From: a virus
Length of the DNA stretch: 53,349 bases
Direction: 5' to 3' (one strand)
Virus record (IMG/VR): IMGVR_UViG_3300025695_001512
Span: 1 to 53,349 of that record
Position 1 is the first letter of the stretch. Each line of letters opens with the position of its first letter. The translations under genes and the position numbers were made by a program. This document shows positions 6,285 to 47,495 of the stretch, piece after piece. Under the pieces are notes generated by a model. That model was not told the DNA's origin and did not search any database. It saw only the letters and a list, made by a program, of their open reading frames with translations.

Positions 6285-6296
6285 ATATTCTTTTTA

Positions 6297-6305
6297 TATA
6301 AATAC
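6297..6305 (-). promoter_or_regulatory. Candidate late promoter box GTATTTATA
   Basis: On the minus strand the box reads GTATTTATA and is followed by TAAAAAGAAT, 12 bases before the ATG at 6284. The same TATTTAT plus A-rich pattern precedes other virion genes. Confidence 0.5.
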
Positions 6306-37262: not shown

Positions 37263-38375
37263 TTAAATTACATAAATTTGTCGAGGCATTGCACGGAACT
37301 GTAACGATTTGTTAAGATTTTCCGCAACGTTAGCTTCTCTTTCCATCATTTTTTCAGGTCTTAATCTTTCAAGTCTTTGTGATAATTCCTCATACAATTT
37401 AGATTTTTCATCTTTTGCTTCTGTTAGTAATGAATCATATTCTAATTGTAATTCCGAATCGGGAGTCTTTAAATTACCACTAAATTTACCCCTTACTCTA
37501 CCTAATGTTTCTTTTACGTAAGCAACAAACCATTTTCTAACCCATGTCTGTGCTGGATTATTTAATTCATCCCACTTCATTTCATCAATAGGTATGTCTG
37601 ATGGTAGTCTTACCACATCGGGGTTTTTAGATAAACAATCTTCACGGTCTTCAGTTTCATAATACCAATACCATACACGATACTCATTGTGTTGAATATT
37701 ACCAAAATCAAACTTACCACCAGGAACGTTCATTAAGTGTACAGCCTTTTTACCGTCTGGAAGTGCAGTAACACGATAAGTTAACTCTCCTGAAATGATT
37801 CTTCTTTTAACATTAATGTCTTGCATTCTAAGTAGAATGTCGAATGCCGGAGTTACAAAGTAATTACCTGTAGTACCCATTTGTGAGAATCCAGCACCTC
37901 CACCTAATCCAACACCACCCATACCTCCAAAACCACCCATAAATGGGTCAAAGAAAGCTGCATCTAATTCTGCACGACTAAACCACAGAAGTTCGTTTAG
38001 TTCTCTACCTTTTGGTATCTCATATATCTGTTGTCCTGGAACTAAATCAATATAGTCTTTTTTAAGAACGTAATCACCACCAGCCTGTAAACCTACAATT
38101 TTTGAATATGAATAGGTGTATTGTGTTTCCCAATCTAAAGAACGTGTTGTAAATGCACGAGTTACGGATTGTTCATCTAAGTTCATTCCGTATAATGAGG
38201 TCCATTGAGATTCAATTAACCAATCGTTTACATATTGTGCATAGTCTTGAATTGATAACTCTAATAGTGAGTCCATCATTTCATCCTCGATTTCTACACT
38301 ACGAATAGGGGCACCTAACAGGTGTTTTACACGAGTAAATAGTTTTGTTCTTTGTGGTTCGTTAATTACAGACAT
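37263..38375 (-). CDS. Putative neck/head-tail connector protein
   Basis: This 370-residue protein begins KLFTRVKHLLGAPIRSVEIE with EMMDSLLELSIQDYAQYVND, the N-terminal helical pattern of T4-like neck and head-completion proteins. A beta-rich middle with WWYYETEDREDCLS-like sequence follows; a Gly/Phe-rich loop (FDPFMGGFGGMGGVGLGGG) is inserted at about residue 143. The C-terminus is helical (EKSKLYEELSQRLERLRPEK). I assign it as a neck candidate from this pattern and its late-type box, with moderate confidence. It has INE at residues 4-6. It is transcribed from its own box 13 bases upstream. Confidence 0.55.
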   Translation of the reverse strand: MSVINEPQRTKLFTRVKHLLGAPIRSVEIEDEMMDSLLELSIQDYAQYVNDWLIESQWTSLYGMNLDEQSVTRAFTTRSLDWETQYTYSYSKIVGLQAGGDYVLKKDYIDLVPGQQIYEIPKGRELNELLWFSRAELDAAFFDPFMGGFGGMGGVGLGGGAGFSQMGTTGNYFVTPAFDILLRMQDINVKRRIISGELTYRVTALPDGKKAVHLMNVPGGKFDFGNIQHNEYRVWYWYYETEDREDCLSKNPDVVRLPSDIPIDEMKWDELNNPAQTWVRKWFVAYVKETLGRVRGKFSGNLKTPDSELQLEYDSLLTEAKDEKSKLYEELSQRLERLRPEKMMEREANVAENLNKSLQFRAMPRQIYVI

Positions 38376-38388
38376 AATGTGTTTTCTA

Positions 38389-38397
38389 TATAAATAT
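38389..38397 (-). promoter_or_regulatory. Candidate late promoter box ATATTTATA (minus)
   Basis: On the minus strand ATATTTATATAGAAAAC is found 13 bases before the ATG at 38375. The same TATTTATATAGAAAA string appears before the SOD fusion gene. Confidence 0.55.
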
Positions 38398-38415: not shown

Positions 38416-39981
38416 TTACTTTGTATACTCCGCGGATTCGTCAAACACGTATCGACCGTCAATAATTTTTGTATTTGAGTTGTCAAATACTATAGTCCCT
38501 AATTTATTATTATGAAATACTAAGAAATCAGTAGTATACGGTTTTACATTACCAGTTCCGTAAACAGTGACTTTACCATTAACTTTCTTAACATCGTTAT
38601 ATGGTTTTATTTGCATTGTTTTAGTTCCTTCAGGTAGTTCAACAATTGCGTCTACACCACCAATCATATCATCAACACCACCTAATTCACCGACTTTAGT
38701 AACTTTGTCTGTTTTAAAGATATCTTTAAGACCAACAACCGCGTCCACTTCTCGTTTATCACCAAATTTATTAGTCTTATCTAAACCAGCCATTAATGTT
38801 TTAAATGTTGAAGATTGACTATCAAATATTCTATATCTTAATTCTACTAAATATTTGTTTAATCTATCAACTTCTTTAACTTGTGCATGATTATTTTTAT
38901 TGTTAAAATTAATTGCATCAATTCCATAATTTCTTAGGAACTGATTTATGTCATTAACTAATGTACAAAATGCCGTGTAATTAGTGTTTAATTTGTTTAT
39001 AACAGAACGACCTTTTTGTTCATAATCATAAACCCCCGACATTTGACCCTGACTATATTGATTTTTTTCGTACCAGTGGTCAGCAAAAACTTCTTTTAAT
39101 ATGTCCATAATTGTAAACATAAATCTTTTTTTAATTTCAGGGTTTGTGTTGAATAATCTTCGGTATGTCTGAACTTGATTTCGATTACACCCTGCACTTG
39201 CACCTTCATTAATTATACTTTTAACTTTTTTTACTTCATTAATTTTTTTTTCTGTCCTCAACTTATATAAGTCATTAACAAAATCCCAATTAATAACGGA
39301 CCAAAAGTTTCTAATATAATCATCTCTTTTATTTTTATACTTTAAATAATATGCGTGTTCCCATACGTCTAAACCTAAAATTGGGAAACCACCATCTTTA
39401 ACTATATTCATCAATGGGTTATCTTGATTAGGTGTAGACATAATTTTTAATCTATTTGATTTGGTTAATACTAACCATACCCATCCAGAACCGAATCTTT
39501 TCTTAGCTTCATTACTGAATATTGATTTAAATTTAGAAAAGTTTTCAAAATCTTTAACAATTTTTTCATAAACTTCACCCTGTGCTCTTTGTTTTTTAGG
39601 CGATAACATTTTCCAAAATAGTGCGTGATTAAACGCCCCACCAGCGTTATTTCTAATTGTTGTGTTGTATCTTGAGATACCTTTTATGATTTGTTCTAAT
39701 TCTAAATCACCGTCTTTTCTTTTTGAAAGAGCGTCATTTAATTTTTTTACATACCCTTTGTAGTGTTTGTTGTAGTGTGTGTCCATAGTATCTGCGTCTA
39801 TGAATCTTTCGAGGGCAGAATAGGAGTAAGGCAATTTTTCAATACCAATTTTTTTCATTTCAGTTAAAATTTCTTTAGGGATTTGCTCAGACATTTCTCT
39901 CAATAGTGTTTGAGTGTCTTGGCTTTGATTAATTTTATGTTCAATTAATGAGATTTTTTCTTCTAATCTTCTGAACTTCAT
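38416..39981 (-). CDS. Mn-type superoxide dismutase fused to an unknown C-terminal domain
   Basis: This 521-residue protein has a complete iron/manganese superoxide dismutase at residues about 47-240. All four metal ligands are present: His69 (DTMDTHYNKHY), His119 (NAGGAFNHALFWK), Asp205 and His209 (GLDVWEHAYYL). Gateway Tyr77 is also there. The NAGG and Gln186 (TPNQDNPL) match manganese rather than iron enzymes. Residues 1-46 are an extra helix. After residue 250 comes a segment with SIINEGASAG, a candidate prohead-protease site, and a roughly 260-residue domain. Its end has GGVDAIVELPEGTKTMQIKP, with Asp444 and Gln457-x-Lys459, as in QxK variants of the PD-(D/E)xK nuclease fold. The nuclease reading is a hypothesis; the SOD is secure. 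A late-type box precedes it. Confidence 0.85.
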   Translation of the reverse strand: MKFRRLEEKISLIEHKINQSQDTQTLLREMSEQIPKEILTEMKKIGIEKLPYSYSALERFIDADTMDTHYNKHYKGYVKKLNDALSKRKDGDLELEQIIKGISRYNTTIRNNAGGAFNHALFWKMLSPKKQRAQGEVYEKIVKDFENFSKFKSIFSNEAKKRFGSGWVWLVLTKSNRLKIMSTPNQDNPLMNIVKDGGFPILGLDVWEHAYYLKYKNKRDDYIRNFWSVINWDFVNDLYKLRTEKKINEVKKVKSIINEGASAGCNRNQVQTYRRLFNTNPEIKKRFMFTIMDILKEVFADHWYEKNQYSQGQMSGVYDYEQKGRSVINKLNTNYTAFCTLVNDINQFLRNYGIDAINFNNKNNHAQVKEVDRLNKYLVELRYRIFDSQSSTFKTLMAGLDKTNKFGDKREVDAVVGLKDIFKTDKVTKVGELGGVDDMIGGVDAIVELPEGTKTMQIKPYNDVKKVNGKVTVYGTGNVKPYTTDFLVFHNNKLGTIVFDNSNTKIIDGRYVFDESAEYTK

Positions 39982-39996
39982 ATTTGTTATTTTCTA

Positions 39997-40005
39997 TATA
40001 AATAA
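39997..40005 (-). promoter_or_regulatory. Candidate late promoter box TTATTTATA (minus)
   Basis: On the minus strand TTATTTATATAGAAAA is found 15 bases upstream of the ATG at 39981. It is nearly identical to the box before the neck-like gene. Confidence 0.55.
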
Positions 40006-40021
40006 CACAGAGAATCAATTT

Positions 40022-41785
40022 TTACCTTCTAACTGAAATTTCATTGATGATTTCTTCCATAATATCACCTTTCCCTTCGTTATCACCCATAACTGTCTCA
40101 AATATGTTCTTTTTTTGAGACAATATGTCATAGATAATACCTTCGATTGAATTTTCAAAAATTGGATAAAAAACGGACACGTTTGATTTTTGTCCGTAAC
40201 GATAGGCTCTGTCTTCTGCTTGTGAGTGGTCTGACGGGACAAACGATAGGTCATTCATTATTACCGCCTCTGCTGCGGTTAATGTTATACCAACACCAGC
40301 CGCTTTCAAGTTTCCAACAAACACTTTTATTTTGTCGTTTTCTTGAAATTGGTCAACAGAGTGTTGACGAGCTGGTTTACTCATTTTACCATCAAGTTTA
40401 ACTGCAGACTTACCAAAATGGTTAGCAATTTGATTTAAGGTATCAGTAAAGTTTGTAAAGATGATTACTTTCTTACCTTGTTCAATAATGTTCTCTGCGA
40501 TTTCACAAGTTTCTTTTATTTTATTCTCCGCAATTACCTGACGAACTTTCATAAGTTTTGAAAATTGAACGGTAAGAGATTTCTTTTCACTTTCATCTTC
40601 TATCCAATCATAATACTCACCCATCAATTCTTCATATTCTTTTGACTTTAAATTTAAATAAACAGGTGTCAAAATTTTATCAGGTAAATCTAAGATGTCT
40701 TCTTTTAGTCTTCTTAAAACGTGTGTTTTTGTTCGGTCCCTCAATTCTAAAAGATTTGACGAACCGTTTACATTCCACACTTTTCTACTACCCACATTAA
40801 ATTGGTATCCCTCACAATAACGAATAACATACGCCATCCAATTATAAGCCACTGGTGACTCAACCAAATTAAGTAAGTTATAATAATTAATTGGTCGTGA
40901 GGTCATAGGGGTCCCCGTTAATAACCACACCTTACCGATTCTGTTGATAATATCATTAATTAACTTTGTTCTTTTAGCTTGGACATTTTGAATATAATGT
41001 GCTTCATCAACAACAACTAAATCAAAACCTTCTTGCATAATGATTGATTCTTCTTTGTTTTTGATATCGTGAAAATTCTTTAAAATGTCGTAGTTAATAA
41101 TAACAAAATCAGCGGATTCCCATTTTTTCCCTTCAATTATTGAAATGGATTTGTCTGTATAATTTTCAATCTCCCTCATCCAATTTATTTTCAAAGATGC
41201 GGGACACACAATTAATACCCTCTCCGCCCCTGACTCTAAGGCTGCAATCACAGTAGATGTGGTTTTACCTAATCCCATGTCATCAGCAAGAATATATTTG
41301 TCGTGAGACGCTAATGTTTCTATTGCTTCTTTTTGGTGAGACAGGGGTGGTCGATGAGAATATTTTTCATAATCAATTGAAACCTCTTTAACATTTTGTG
41401 TTGGTATTAAAGCAACTTTTGGCAACCAAAAATCATGTAATTGTTGATTTTCAAAAACTTTACCCCAAATATGGAATGATTTATCCTTTTCCACCAATAT
41501 TTTTTCAACGTATATTTTTTCAGGTATTTTGGTTAATAGTTTTTCTTCCATCATCTTTTTACCGAAGTAACTGTCAAGGTCAACCCACTTTCTTGCTATC
41601 TTAGGGACCTTTTCGTGGTAAGTGTTGATGTAATCCGCTTGGGCACGAGTAATCTTAAAGTGTTTTTGTTTTACACTTTTTTTCTTTATACCGAGTATAT
41701 AATTATTGAACCCTTCGTAGTCTTCTAATATACGTTGTGCTCTAACCTCAGGTATTTTTGATAATTTATCTTTATTACTTTGCAT
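40022..41785 (-). CDS. SNF2-family helicase/ATPase
   Basis: This 587-residue protein is a two-RecA-domain SF2 ATPase of the SNF2 type. Motif I is ILADDMGLGKTT (168-175), motif II VVVDEAHYIQN (DEAH at 260-263) and motif III WLLTGTPMTSRP. The helicase C-domain has KVIIFTNFTDTLNQIANHF, VGNLKAAGVGITLTAAEAV and SQAEDRAYRYGQKSNV (motif VI). The arrangement resembles SMARCAL1/HepA-type annealing helicases and T4-like phage SNF2 proteins used in repair and fork handling. The first 140 residues are an unassigned N-terminal region. The upstream 46 bases hold an ATATTTATA shared with the divergent plus-strand gene. Confidence 0.88.
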   Translation of the reverse strand: MQSNKDKLSKIPEVRAQRILEDYEGFNNYILGIKKKSVKQKHFKITRAQADYINTYHEKVPKIARKWVDLDSYFGKKMMEEKLLTKIPEKIYVEKILVEKDKSFHIWGKVFENQQLHDFWLPKVALIPTQNVKEVSIDYEKYSHRPPLSHQKEAIETLASHDKYILADDMGLGKTTSTVIAALESGAERVLIVCPASLKINWMREIENYTDKSISIIEGKKWESADFVIINYDILKNFHDIKNKEESIIMQEGFDLVVVDEAHYIQNVQAKRTKLINDIINRIGKVWLLTGTPMTSRPINYYNLLNLVESPVAYNWMAYVIRYCEGYQFNVGSRKVWNVNGSSNLLELRDRTKTHVLRRLKEDILDLPDKILTPVYLNLKSKEYEELMGEYYDWIEDESEKKSLTVQFSKLMKVRQVIAENKIKETCEIAENIIEQGKKVIIFTNFTDTLNQIANHFGKSAVKLDGKMSKPARQHSVDQFQENDKIKVFVGNLKAAGVGITLTAAEAVIMNDLSFVPSDHSQAEDRAYRYGQKSNVSVFYPIFENSIEGIIYDILSQKKNIFETVMGDNEGKGDIMEEIINEISVRR

Positions 41786-44309: not shown

Positions 44310-47300
44310 ATGGCGACAGCAAACAAAGTATTCGTTTCTCCAGGTGTTTATACATCTGAAAGAGATTTAAGTTTTGTAGCACAAAGTGTCGGTGTAACAA
44401 CATTAGGTATTGTAGGTGAAACTCTTTCGGGTCCAGCATTTGAGCCGATTTTCATCTCAAACTATGATGAATACCAAGCATACTTTGGCGGTACAAATCC
44501 AACAAAATTTGTCAACACCCAAATTCCTAAGTACGAAGCTGCCTATATAGCAAAGGCATATTTACAACAATCAAATCAATTGTTTGTAACGAGAGTATTG
44601 GGTTTATCAGGGTATGACGCAGGACCTTCATGGTCTATAAAAACAGTAGGTAACTTAGATAGTTCAGGAACAACCGCAACTTCAGTTGCAGGTCCATTTA
44701 CTATTGAGTTCTCAGGAACATCAGGTGATAGTACAACTATTTCTGTGACAAATTATACCTCATTACCTCCATCTATTGAAGATGTAATCACTTTCCCTTA
44801 TACAACCTATACGGGTGGTGAGTCAACAATATTGGGTGATATGGAAGATTTACTTTACGGTGAAATCGTATCTCTATCATCTTCAGGTTCAACATCATAT
44901 TTTTGGGGTTCGGTAAGTGCATCTACATTTGATGATGTTACAGGTGCAACACCAAACTACAGTGCAAACACTAACGTATTAGAGGTTGATGACATTTCAT
45001 TTGAAAATTGTGATTTAACTGCATCTGAAAATGACCCATGGTATTACGCATTATTTAGTCAATCTAATAATGTATATAGTGGTGTTGGTTTTGGTATGGG
45101 TGTAACTGGATTAACAAATACAGTTGGTGATGATTATTCAGGAACTGCAGTTGTATACTTAACAAACTATACAGGTTCACCAATGAGTGAATATCACAAC
45201 TTAGTTGTTGCAACTTTACGTTCAAGAGGTATTGCAACTTATTCAACTGATGACGGTCCTGTTTATGAAGTATCAGGATTAACAGATGTATTAATGGATT
45301 GTACTGGTGAATATTCAGCAGTGACAAAAAATCCTTTTGAAACATTTGCAATTTCAGGTATAACTAATGATGGTGACACATTTAATTTTAAAACATCATT
45401 CAACGTTTCAGATTCTAACTATATATCAAAAGTATTTGGTAAATCAAACTTCGCAAAACCACGAACTGAAGTTCCATTATTCTTAGAGGAAGAGTATTAC
45501 TCTATGTTAAATATTGGATATAGAAAAGGTATGATTAGAGGTTTAGATTGTGACCTATTATCTTTAGATGGTGCAAGAACTGATACTGCTAATACAGGTA
45601 TTGGTTGGTATTTAGATAGATATCAAACACCTGAAACTCCATATGTTGTTTCTGAATTACGAGGAACACAGGTATATAATATGTTTAAATTTATAACGGT
45701 ATCAGATGGTAACTCAGCAAATAGAGAAGTAAAAATTTCAATTATTAATATTTCATTTAATAACGGAACATTTGATATTGTTGTTCGTGATTTCTTTGAC
45801 ACTGATGCAAATCCAGTAGTGTTAGAAAAATTCACCAACTGTACGATGGACCCTAACCAAAATAGTTTTGTCGCTAAGAAGATAGGTACGGCTAACGGTG
45901 ATTTTGAATTAAAATCAAGATATATTATGTTGGAAATGAATGAGGACGCACCAATAGATTCATTACCTTGTGGTTTCCGTGGGTATTTAACAAGACAATA
46001 CTCAGGCTCTAAATCACCATTCTTAGAATATAAGACTGAGTATTACAGACCAGGTCAGGTTATCTTTAATCCACCTTTCGGTAACGCTTCAGGAAGTGAT
46101 AATGAGACAAGAGCTGCGGGTGACAAAGTAAGAAAAGTATACTTAGGTGTTTCTAACACTATGGGTATCGATTCTGACTTCTTCCAATACAAGGGAAAAC
46201 AAAATCCATTAAACTTAAAAACTGCAACGTCTTCACAACCATGGGCATACCTTACAAAAGGATTCCACATGGATTCAGGAGCAACAATCGTTACTATCCC
46301 TGCGGATTACGTAACTTCAGGTCAATCATCATTTGAGGTTGGTGTAGCTGAGTTTAGAGGTGAACCGCAAGATGAAAGTAACCCATACTACAAACTTAAT
46401 TCACGTAAGTTTACATTAGCACCTTCAGGTGGTTTTGATGGATGGGACATCTATAGAGAATATAGAACTAACGGTGATAGATACCAATTAGGGGCTGCGG
46501 GTTATAGAAAAGGTGCTGCACCTTCAATTAGTTATCCTACTTCTACAGGATGGGGAGCGTTTAAACAAATTACGGGACCTGACCAATTAACGTGGGGTAA
46601 CACTGACTACTATTCTTACTTATGGGGTCAACATACATTCCATAATCCTGAAGCAATTAATATTAATGTGTTTACAACACCTGGTATTGATTACGTTAAT
46701 AACTCAAATCTTATTGAAGAGGCTATTGATATGGTTGAGACAGATAGAGCGGATTCAATCTATATCTGTACTACACCTGACTATCAAATGTTTACACCAA
46801 CATTAGGTGACTTTGACACTAACTTTATTTACCCTGAGGAAGCGGTAGATAATTTAGAGGAAACGGGTATTGATTCTAACTATTCGGCAACTTACTATCC
46901 TTGGATTTTAACAAGAGATACAGTAAATAACACTCAAATTTATTTACCACCAACAGCGGAAGTAGTAAGAAACTTAGCACTTACGGATAACATCGCGTTC
47001 CCTTGGTTCGCATCAGCGGGTTACACAAGAGGTTTGGTAAACGCTGTTAAAGCACGTAAGAAGTTGACTCAAGAAGACAGAGATATTCTTTATAAAGGTA
47101 GACTTAACCCAATTGCAACATTCTCAGATGTGGGAACAGTAATTTGGGGTAACAAAACTCTACAGGTTAGAGAGTCAGCACTTGATAGAATTAACGTAAG
47201 AAGATTGTTATTACAAGCACGTAAACTAATCTCAGCAGTAGCAGTAAGATTATTATTCGAACAGAATGACGAGCAAGTAAGACAAGAGTTCTTAGATTCT

Positions 47301-47495
47301 GTAAACCCAATCTTAGACGGAATCAGAAGAGACCGTGGTTTGATTGACTTTAGAGTTACAGTTTCTAATACACCTGAAGATTTAGATTCAAATACCTTAA
47401 CAGGTAAAATTTATCTAAAACCAACGAGAGCACTTGAATTCATCGATATTGAATTCTTAATTACTCCGACAGGTGCATCATTTGAGGATATTTAA
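44310..47495 (+). CDS. Tail sheath protein, gp18-like
   Basis: This 1061-residue protein has the conserved ends of contractile-tail sheath proteins. The N-terminus has VFVSPGVYTSERDLSFVAQ, and the C-terminus has IDFRVTVSNTPEDLDSNTL followed by KIYLKPTRALEFIDIEFLI. A typical motif near residue 900, NIAFPWFASAGYTRGLVN, with ARKKLTQEDRDILYKGRLNP and VRRLLLQARKLISAVAV, is the most conserved sheath core. T4 gp18 has 659 residues; the extra 400 residues here are Gly/Ser/Thr-rich variable domains (for example 130-330), which in other phages decorate the outside of the sheath. The sheath contracts to drive the tube through the host envelope. Confidence 0.92.
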   Translation: MATANKVFVSPGVYTSERDLSFVAQSVGVTTLGIVGETLSGPAFEPIFISNYDEYQAYFGGTNPTKFVNTQIPKYEAAYIAKAYLQQSNQLFVTRVLGLSGYDAGPSWSIKTVGNLDSSGTTATSVAGPFTIEFSGTSGDSTTISVTNYTSLPPSIEDVITFPYTTYTGGESTILGDMEDLLYGEIVSLSSSGSTSYFWGSVSASTFDDVTGATPNYSANTNVLEVDDISFENCDLTASENDPWYYALFSQSNNVYSGVGFGMGVTGLTNTVGDDYSGTAVVYLTNYTGSPMSEYHNLVVATLRSRGIATYSTDDGPVYEVSGLTDVLMDCTGEYSAVTKNPFETFAISGITNDGDTFNFKTSFNVSDSNYISKVFGKSNFAKPRTEVPLFLEEEYYSMLNIGYRKGMIRGLDCDLLSLDGARTDTANTGIGWYLDRYQTPETPYVVSELRGTQVYNMFKFITVSDGNSANREVKISIINISFNNGTFDIVVRDFFDTDANPVVLEKFTNCTMDPNQNSFVAKKIGTANGDFELKSRYIMLEMNEDAPIDSLPCGFRGYLTRQYSGSKSPFLEYKTEYYRPGQVIFNPPFGNASGSDNETRAAGDKVRKVYLGVSNTMGIDSDFFQYKGKQNPLNLKTATSSQPWAYLTKGFHMDSGATIVTIPADYVTSGQSSFEVGVAEFRGEPQDESNPYYKLNSRKFTLAPSGGFDGWDIYREYRTNGDRYQLGAAGYRKGAAPSISYPTSTGWGAFKQITGPDQLTWGNTDYYSYLWGQHTFHNPEAININVFTTPGIDYVNNSNLIEEAIDMVETDRADSIYICTTPDYQMFTPTLGDFDTNFIYPEEAVDNLEETGIDSNYSATYYPWILTRDTVNNTQIYLPPTAEVVRNLALTDNIAFPWFASAGYTRGLVNAVKARKKLTQEDRDILYKGRLNPIATFSDVGTVIWGNKTLQVRESALDRINVRRLLLQARKLISAVAVRLLFEQNDEQVRQEFLDSVNPILDGIRRDRGLIDFRVTVSNTPEDLDSNTLTGKIYLKPTRALEFIDIEFLITPTGASFEDI

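Follow-up and report, generated by a model that had tools for sequence, protein, structure and literature searches.

A superoxide dismutase fused to a QxK nuclease-like domain: a putative head-targeted polyprotein of uncultured T4-like phages

The DNA analyzed here, referred to as the window, is a stretch of 53,349 nucleotides from IMG/VR virus record IMGVR_UViG_3300025695_001512. It contains an open reading frame in which a superoxide dismutase (SOD) is joined through a linker to a nuclease-like domain (Table 1). The reading frame starts with ATG and lies exactly where a first-pass annotation, made without database searches, had placed it. The gene order helicase, fusion gene, neck gene recurs in those relatives for which the neighborhood was listed. 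In one of them, the SNF2 helicase gene (L187:1979-4858, plus strand) appears to contain an intein-like insert, its product having 959 amino acids (aa) compared with about 590. Elsewhere in the window, the tail sheath protein (44310-47495, plus strand; 1,061 aa) matches sheath proteins only over residues ~771 to 1058 and carries approximately 770 extra N-terminal residues.

Table 1. Features of the fusion locus and of related loci. Residues are those of the fusion protein; a slash marks a predicted cut. Coordinates without a prefix refer to the window.
Feature	Position	Strand	Description or basis
Whole fusion gene	38416..39981	-	521 aa; propeptide (predicted), Mn-SOD, linker and QxK nuclease-like domain; colinear in 123 distinct relatives
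Predicted N-terminal propeptide (capsid-targeting-like), residues 1-41	39859..39981	-	Ends L39-T-E41/M42; kept in SOD-less versions
Mn-type superoxide dismutase, residues 42-241	39259..39858	-	H69, Y77, H119, D205 and H209 invariant
Linker, residues 242-259	39205..39258	-	Low confidence; [IL]xE sites E249 (39235-39243) and E259 (39205-39213)
Helical region and PD-(D/E)xK-like core, residues 260-521	38419..39204	-	E411, D444, Q457-x-K459; model, Foldseek PDB/BFVD nuclease matches, paralogues
SNF2-type DNA helicase	40022..41785	-	Upstream neighbor of fusion gene; phrog_62, 3.5e-110
Head-tail-adaptor-like neck protein	37263-38375		Next gene after fusion gene; phrog_211, 1.7e-10
Promoter-like motif TATTTATATAGAA	39992..40004	-	Upstream of fusion gene; exact match also before neck-like gene
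TATTTATATAGAA motif	38384..38396	-	Upstream of neck-like gene 37263-38375
TATTTATA-type upstream sites in window	39992-40004, 38384-38396, 6292-6304		
QxK-domain paralogue	L366:4104-5057 (G001:118104-119060)	+	
QxK-domain paralogue	L386:4910-5983	-	
QxK-domain paralogue	L386:17604-18608	-	
Examples of MKxx[IL]xE-type starts	G001:11069, 26653, 44403, 75500, 118104; G003:62058	+	
Examples of MKxx[IL]xE-type starts	G001:83681; G004:117241	-	

The first half of the protein contains a complete Mn-type SOD. Pfam domains Sod_Fe_N (2.3e-22) and Sod_Fe_C (2e-39) span residues 48 to 237, which places the SOD domain at approximately 48 to 240, and the closest solved relatives are bacterial Mn-SODs (6gsc, 1.9e-59). 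By these domains and its four metal ligands, the protein qualifies as an Fe/Mn SOD of the Mn type. The ligands H69, H119, D205, and H209 as well as Y77, from which a complete Mn-type SOD had been claimed in the first-pass annotation, occur in 123/123 aligned relatives. That claim held, and activity with Mn is inferred. Identity to solved or bacterial Mn-SODs, the closest of which are from Bacteroidota, amounts to ~45 to 55%. Unlike these enzymes, the phage SOD sits within a precursor together with a putative propeptide and nuclease.

Among isolate phages, 28 of 50,697 records matched the SOD; approximately 12 of these come from annotated jumbo phages, whose SOD is short and encoded on its own. 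The enzymes of the PA5oct/Callisto group and Vibrio phage 2.275.O are likewise Fe/Mn SODs encoded by phages with large genomes, but they comprise only 182 to 189 aa, lack a propeptide or nuclease, and are 27 to 29% identical to the SOD described here. A scan of IMG/VR proteins matched at least 598 stretches, a count that includes matches to SOD patterns alone, and it showed the fusion to be common in an uncultured clade of T4-like giant phages. The earlier statement that SODs are rare in phages was thus confirmed for isolates and failed for this clade. From the scan, 123 distinct proteins carrying both halves were taken as the set of relatives; these are 53 to 90% identical. Since all of them are colinear, with unchanged key residues, the fusion represents a gene stably maintained in a large group of uncultured phages. 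An assembly chimera was rejected, as this colinearity of 123 distinct proteins extends over many contigs. At one locus (L154:3320-4883, plus strand), the fusion gene is interrupted only by a frameshift; this falls in an A-rich stretch and probably reflects a sequencing error. The bacterial SODs nearest to the phage SOD are mostly from Bacteroidota, and the nearest cultured relatives by capsid include Flavobacterium phages and Rhodothermus phage RM378. For these two reasons we infer that the host is likely to belong to the Bacteroidota.

Searching Pfam and the PDB by sequence with the C-terminal domain returned nothing meaningful. No relatives of this domain were found in cultured phages or cellular genomes; the genome scan used one peptide pattern and thus provides weak negative evidence. 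An AlphaFold2 model built from a 65-row alignment reached a pLDDT of 91.7 and a pTM of 0.82. Its best PDB matches in Foldseek were to I-Ssp6803I, a PD-(D/E)xK homing endonuclease (E 3.6e-3, probability 0.89 to 1.00), followed by archaeal Hjc resolvases (probability 0.33 to 0.97) and NhoI; matches among viral models (BFVD) include proteins named as Holliday junction resolvases and PD(D/E)XK enzymes. As in I-Ssp6803I and Hjc, the model arranges E in a helix, D on strand 2, and Q-x-K on strand 3. It differs from them in having no sequence match, an extra helical part of ~130 residues, and no evident second core helix; strands take the place of this helix after strand 3. With a best E value of 3.6e-3 against the PDB and a TM of 0.41 by target, the matches are weak, and because TM-scores are low, the assignment to the PD-(D/E)xK fold is probable rather than proven. 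DNA cleavage by the domain is inferred.

Alignment of the 123 relatives revealed E411, D444, Q457, K459, and P460 in every protein. The residue pattern of the PD-(D/E)xK superfamily, a conserved acidic residue and (D/E/Q)xK, is therefore present, and these residues also align in three diverged paralogues of the domain from related phages. The paralogues have 318 aa (on a 322-kb contig) and 358 and 335 aa (both on a 199-kb contig), with hhalign E values of 5.7e-8, 1e-12, and 1.2e-7, respectively, and the E, D, and QxK residues aligned. Several such paralogues coexist within one genome. The 318-aa paralogue has the gp21 gene on one side and, on the other, an acidic scaffold-like gene followed by the major capsid gene; its N terminus, MKITISE/GQ, is itself an [IL]xE start. 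The first-pass annotation had placed Asp444 and Gln457-x-Lys459 in a PD-(D/E)xK-like setting and would have abandoned this half had the predicted fold been unrelated to nucleases. The residues were supported in full, and an unrelated fold was rejected by the fold matches together with the paralogues, the fold evidence alone being weak. UniProt entry A0A6J5L953 (501 aa), from an uncultured Caudovirales phage, bears no description beyond the automatic name "superoxide dismutase" and is predicted to have the same C-terminal fold (E 1.7e-25, TM 0.90 by query). The same fold was also seen in a far longer protein of 1,113 aa from an uncultured marine phage (BFVD A0A8D9CCA0, E 1.5e-18), perhaps another cargo combination.

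In phage T4, the prohead protease gp21 cleaves after L/I-X-E and strips N-terminal targeting propeptides from head cargo; these have 10 to 19 aa in the internal proteins, and the 65-aa propeptide of gp23 is cut after residue 65 (PMC9026906). N-terminal head-targeting signals are also known from P1 (PMC9024508). In the linker of the fusion protein, pLDDT drops below 50 at residues 245 to 259, and mean identity is 0.48. An [IL]xE motif shared by at least 90% of the 123 alignment rows is seen only at residues 247 to 249 and 257 to 259. E259 and [IL]257 are each found in 122/123, and the next residue is G in 100/123. Because no other place reaches this level and both lie in an otherwise poorly conserved linker, we read the SIINE/G site as something other than a chance motif. 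A third [IL]xE, ending at E41, precedes the SOD, which makes residues 1 to 41 a likely propeptide. E41 is aligned in 103 of the 123 relatives, and the remaining 18 full-length N termini have [IVL]xE shifted by a few residues; the motif therefore outlives its exact position. Two rows (L100 and L102) were uninformative for this count, as their sequences had been read from a start codon immediately preceding the SOD. The SIINE-G site had already been recognized between the halves in the first-pass annotation and held, with cleavage inferred; the sites at E249 and E41, and the propeptide that results from the latter, had been missed.

A gp21-family protease (PF03420) is encoded by 9 of the 12 long relatives. 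It was not found in the 53-kb window, which is a fragment. All six genomes tested encode a gp23-type major capsid protein with HLINE/A or FLINE/A at residue ~61 of the N terminus, matching the T4 gp23 cut in both motif and place, and IINE/G in the fusion protein is the same motif. Two features of T4-type head cargo are present: a predicted N-terminal propeptide ending in L/I-X-E and, through the long relatives, a gp21-type protease.

The SOD was absent at 11 loci from two lineages (L187/L188 and L201-L209), where the N-terminal segment and the C-terminal domain were kept. Both losses are independent and in frame, and the last of the cleavage motifs is kept too. L204, for example, shows ~91% DNA identity downstream to its close relative L081 and lacks the SOD segment in frame, with INE/M and ISE/G retained. 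Loss rather than gain is favored because the SOD-less versions are nested inside SOD-bearing clades in a tree that requires at least two changes. A SOD-less ancestral state is accordingly disfavored; the root, set by a single very distant paralogue, is uncertain. No SOD was found anywhere in a 318-kb SOD-less contig. Together with the natural deletions, this indicates that the SOD behaves as removable cargo and the nuclease-like domain as the constant part. We also considered whether the product is a structural core protein whose SOD and nuclease folds act as scaffolding without catalysis. The adjoining neck-like gene would fit, and internal proteins can be abundant parts of the core (PMC9958956). 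However, all SOD ligands and the E-D-QxK residues are invariant across proteins that are only 53 to 90% identical, and the SOD is dispensable, so that we regard this reading as very unlikely.

Retention of the nuclease-like domain where the SOD was lost is also consistent with a possible alternative that we take to be the main rival. In this scenario, the C-terminal domain is a head-completion nuclease with a role like that of T4 gp4 at the end of packaging, and the SOD is an occasional passenger guarding DNA or nuclease in the capsid; no action in the host is needed. T4 gp4, likewise head associated, is a nuclease of the PD-(D/E)xK type that packaging requires (PMC7824862, PMC1189080). Further support comes from the adjoining neck-like gene and from the fact that no gp4 homologue passed the search in six long relatives, although a true gp4 may have escaped notice through divergence or because sequences are fragments. 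Against it, gp4 belongs to the TnsA-like family (PF08722), and no sequence relationship was detected (hhalign probability 0.3), so that the QxK domain was rejected as a gp4 relative. The coexistence of several QxK paralogues in one genome is more readily explained by a cargo family than by one dedicated morphogenesis enzyme. To our knowledge, no propeptide on T4 gp4 has been described. A gp4-like hit in one genome (G013) was also rejected. There, a dUTPase-like gene (L343:238-1839, plus strand) is split by an intein-like sequence and followed by the homing-endonuclease-like ORF that caused the false hit.

The sequence TATTTAT was found no more than 45 nucleotides upstream of the fusion gene in 118 of 123 relatives. 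The T4 late promoter box TATAAATA, of which TATTTATA is the reverse complement, was rejected as the upstream element, being present in only 4/123. TATTTATA occurs in all five gp21 upstream regions inspected and is not found before capsid genes. Within the window, it lies ~20 nucleotides before the start codon in 9 of 45 genes, with 15 occurrences over both strands. We infer from these sequences that it is likely a phage-specific promoter element.

Another alternative is that the protein works uncut as a bifunctional enzyme in the host cytoplasm during infection without ever being packaged; the [IL]xE motifs would then be structural or due to chance. The colinearity of the fusion in 123/123 proteins and the cytoplasmic-type gene neighborhoods of free-standing SODs in cultured jumbo phages speak for it. 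Several observations make it unlikely: the linker is modeled with low confidence and is variable save at the motifs, the N-terminal motif keeps its identity despite shifts in position, the SOD losses take out the part between the cut sites, the promoter motif is shared with gp21 genes, and the capsid protein carries the same cut motif.

The reading we prefer, with a rough probability of 0.6, is that of a head-targeted polyprotein. The gene product would be an internal, prohead-core precursor that residues 1 to 41 bring into the prohead. A gp21-type protease would then cut after E41, E249, and E259 to release a free Mn-SOD and a free QxK-type PD-(D/E)xK nuclease. Both enzymes would stay with the DNA in the capsid and probably enter the host upon ejection, where the SOD would clear superoxide around the arriving DNA. 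DNA would also be the substrate of the nuclease, be it that of the host or of a competitor; alternatively, the nuclease would serve in the maturation of the head. What the sequences establish is the presence of both domains with their invariant residues, the conservation of the cut motifs, the existence of a protease gene and of a shared promoter motif, and a SOD loss that spares the rest; packaging, cutting, catalysis, ejection, and physiological role are inferred.

The polyprotein reading agrees with the first-pass annotation in its three parts, an intact Mn-SOD, a PD-(D/E)xK-like QxK domain, and cleavage in between. These were supported and survived tests that could have refuted them, with activities, cleavage, and virion location inferred. 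Its proposal of cleavage by a prohead protease was strengthened by the gp21-family protease, the capsid motif, the propeptide, and the two SOD deletions. The suggested protection from oxidative stress on entry is possible and no more than a plausible inference. Caution is warranted, as the cut motif has only three residues and a propeptide of ~41 aa is longer than those of T4 internal proteins, although that of gp23 is longer still. Moreover, virion proteomics are lacking for these phages, the domain was found in no cultured relative, and the fold matches are weak. A bolder version, in which two separate working enzymes are delivered in the capsid and then into the host, would make the QxK domain one member of a family of head nucleases that are targeted by propeptides and occur in T4-like giant phages infecting aquatic hosts, probably Bacteroidota; we rate it as somewhat less likely than not.

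Phage enzymes packaged in heads are known, among them T4 Alt and the internal proteins, the Dar proteins of phage P1, and the RNA polymerases of phiKZ-like phages. The fusion protein resembles T4 IPI-III and Alt in its N-terminal propeptide (predicted here) ending in L/I-X-E, a gp21-family protease in the genome, the head-related context, and a cargo that is dispensable and exchangeable. It differs from them in that no sequence relationship was shown, the propeptide is longer, the precursor comprises two enzymes with internal cut sites, and the cargo is a SOD and a putative nuclease rather than anti-restriction or ADP-ribosylating proteins. In the literature searched, which left out most subscription journals and preprints, we found no description of a SOD-nuclease fusion, of the internal cut sites, or of a head-associated QxK family; within this limit, the earlier claim that no such fusion had been described held. 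Nor was a packaged antioxidant enzyme, or a cargo polyprotein split into two enzymes by a prohead protease, found in that literature. Propeptide-bearing head cargo (in T4) and free-standing phage SODs are known already.

If true, the polyprotein reading suggests that superoxide exerts selection when DNA enters the cell or within the capsid, and it would define a nuclease family tied to head assembly in an abundant group of uncultured phages. For the loading of enzymes into phage heads, the protein would also offer a natural template, complete with cargo deletions that arose in nature. As the cut sites are explicit, the idea can be tested directly. In a pattern-based comparison without a background model, eight proteins in G001, G003, and G004 were seen to start like MKxx[IL]xE-x-Q-x(3-5)-[IL]xE. 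This start may represent a short propeptide, ending in LxE, that targets proteins to the head more generally.
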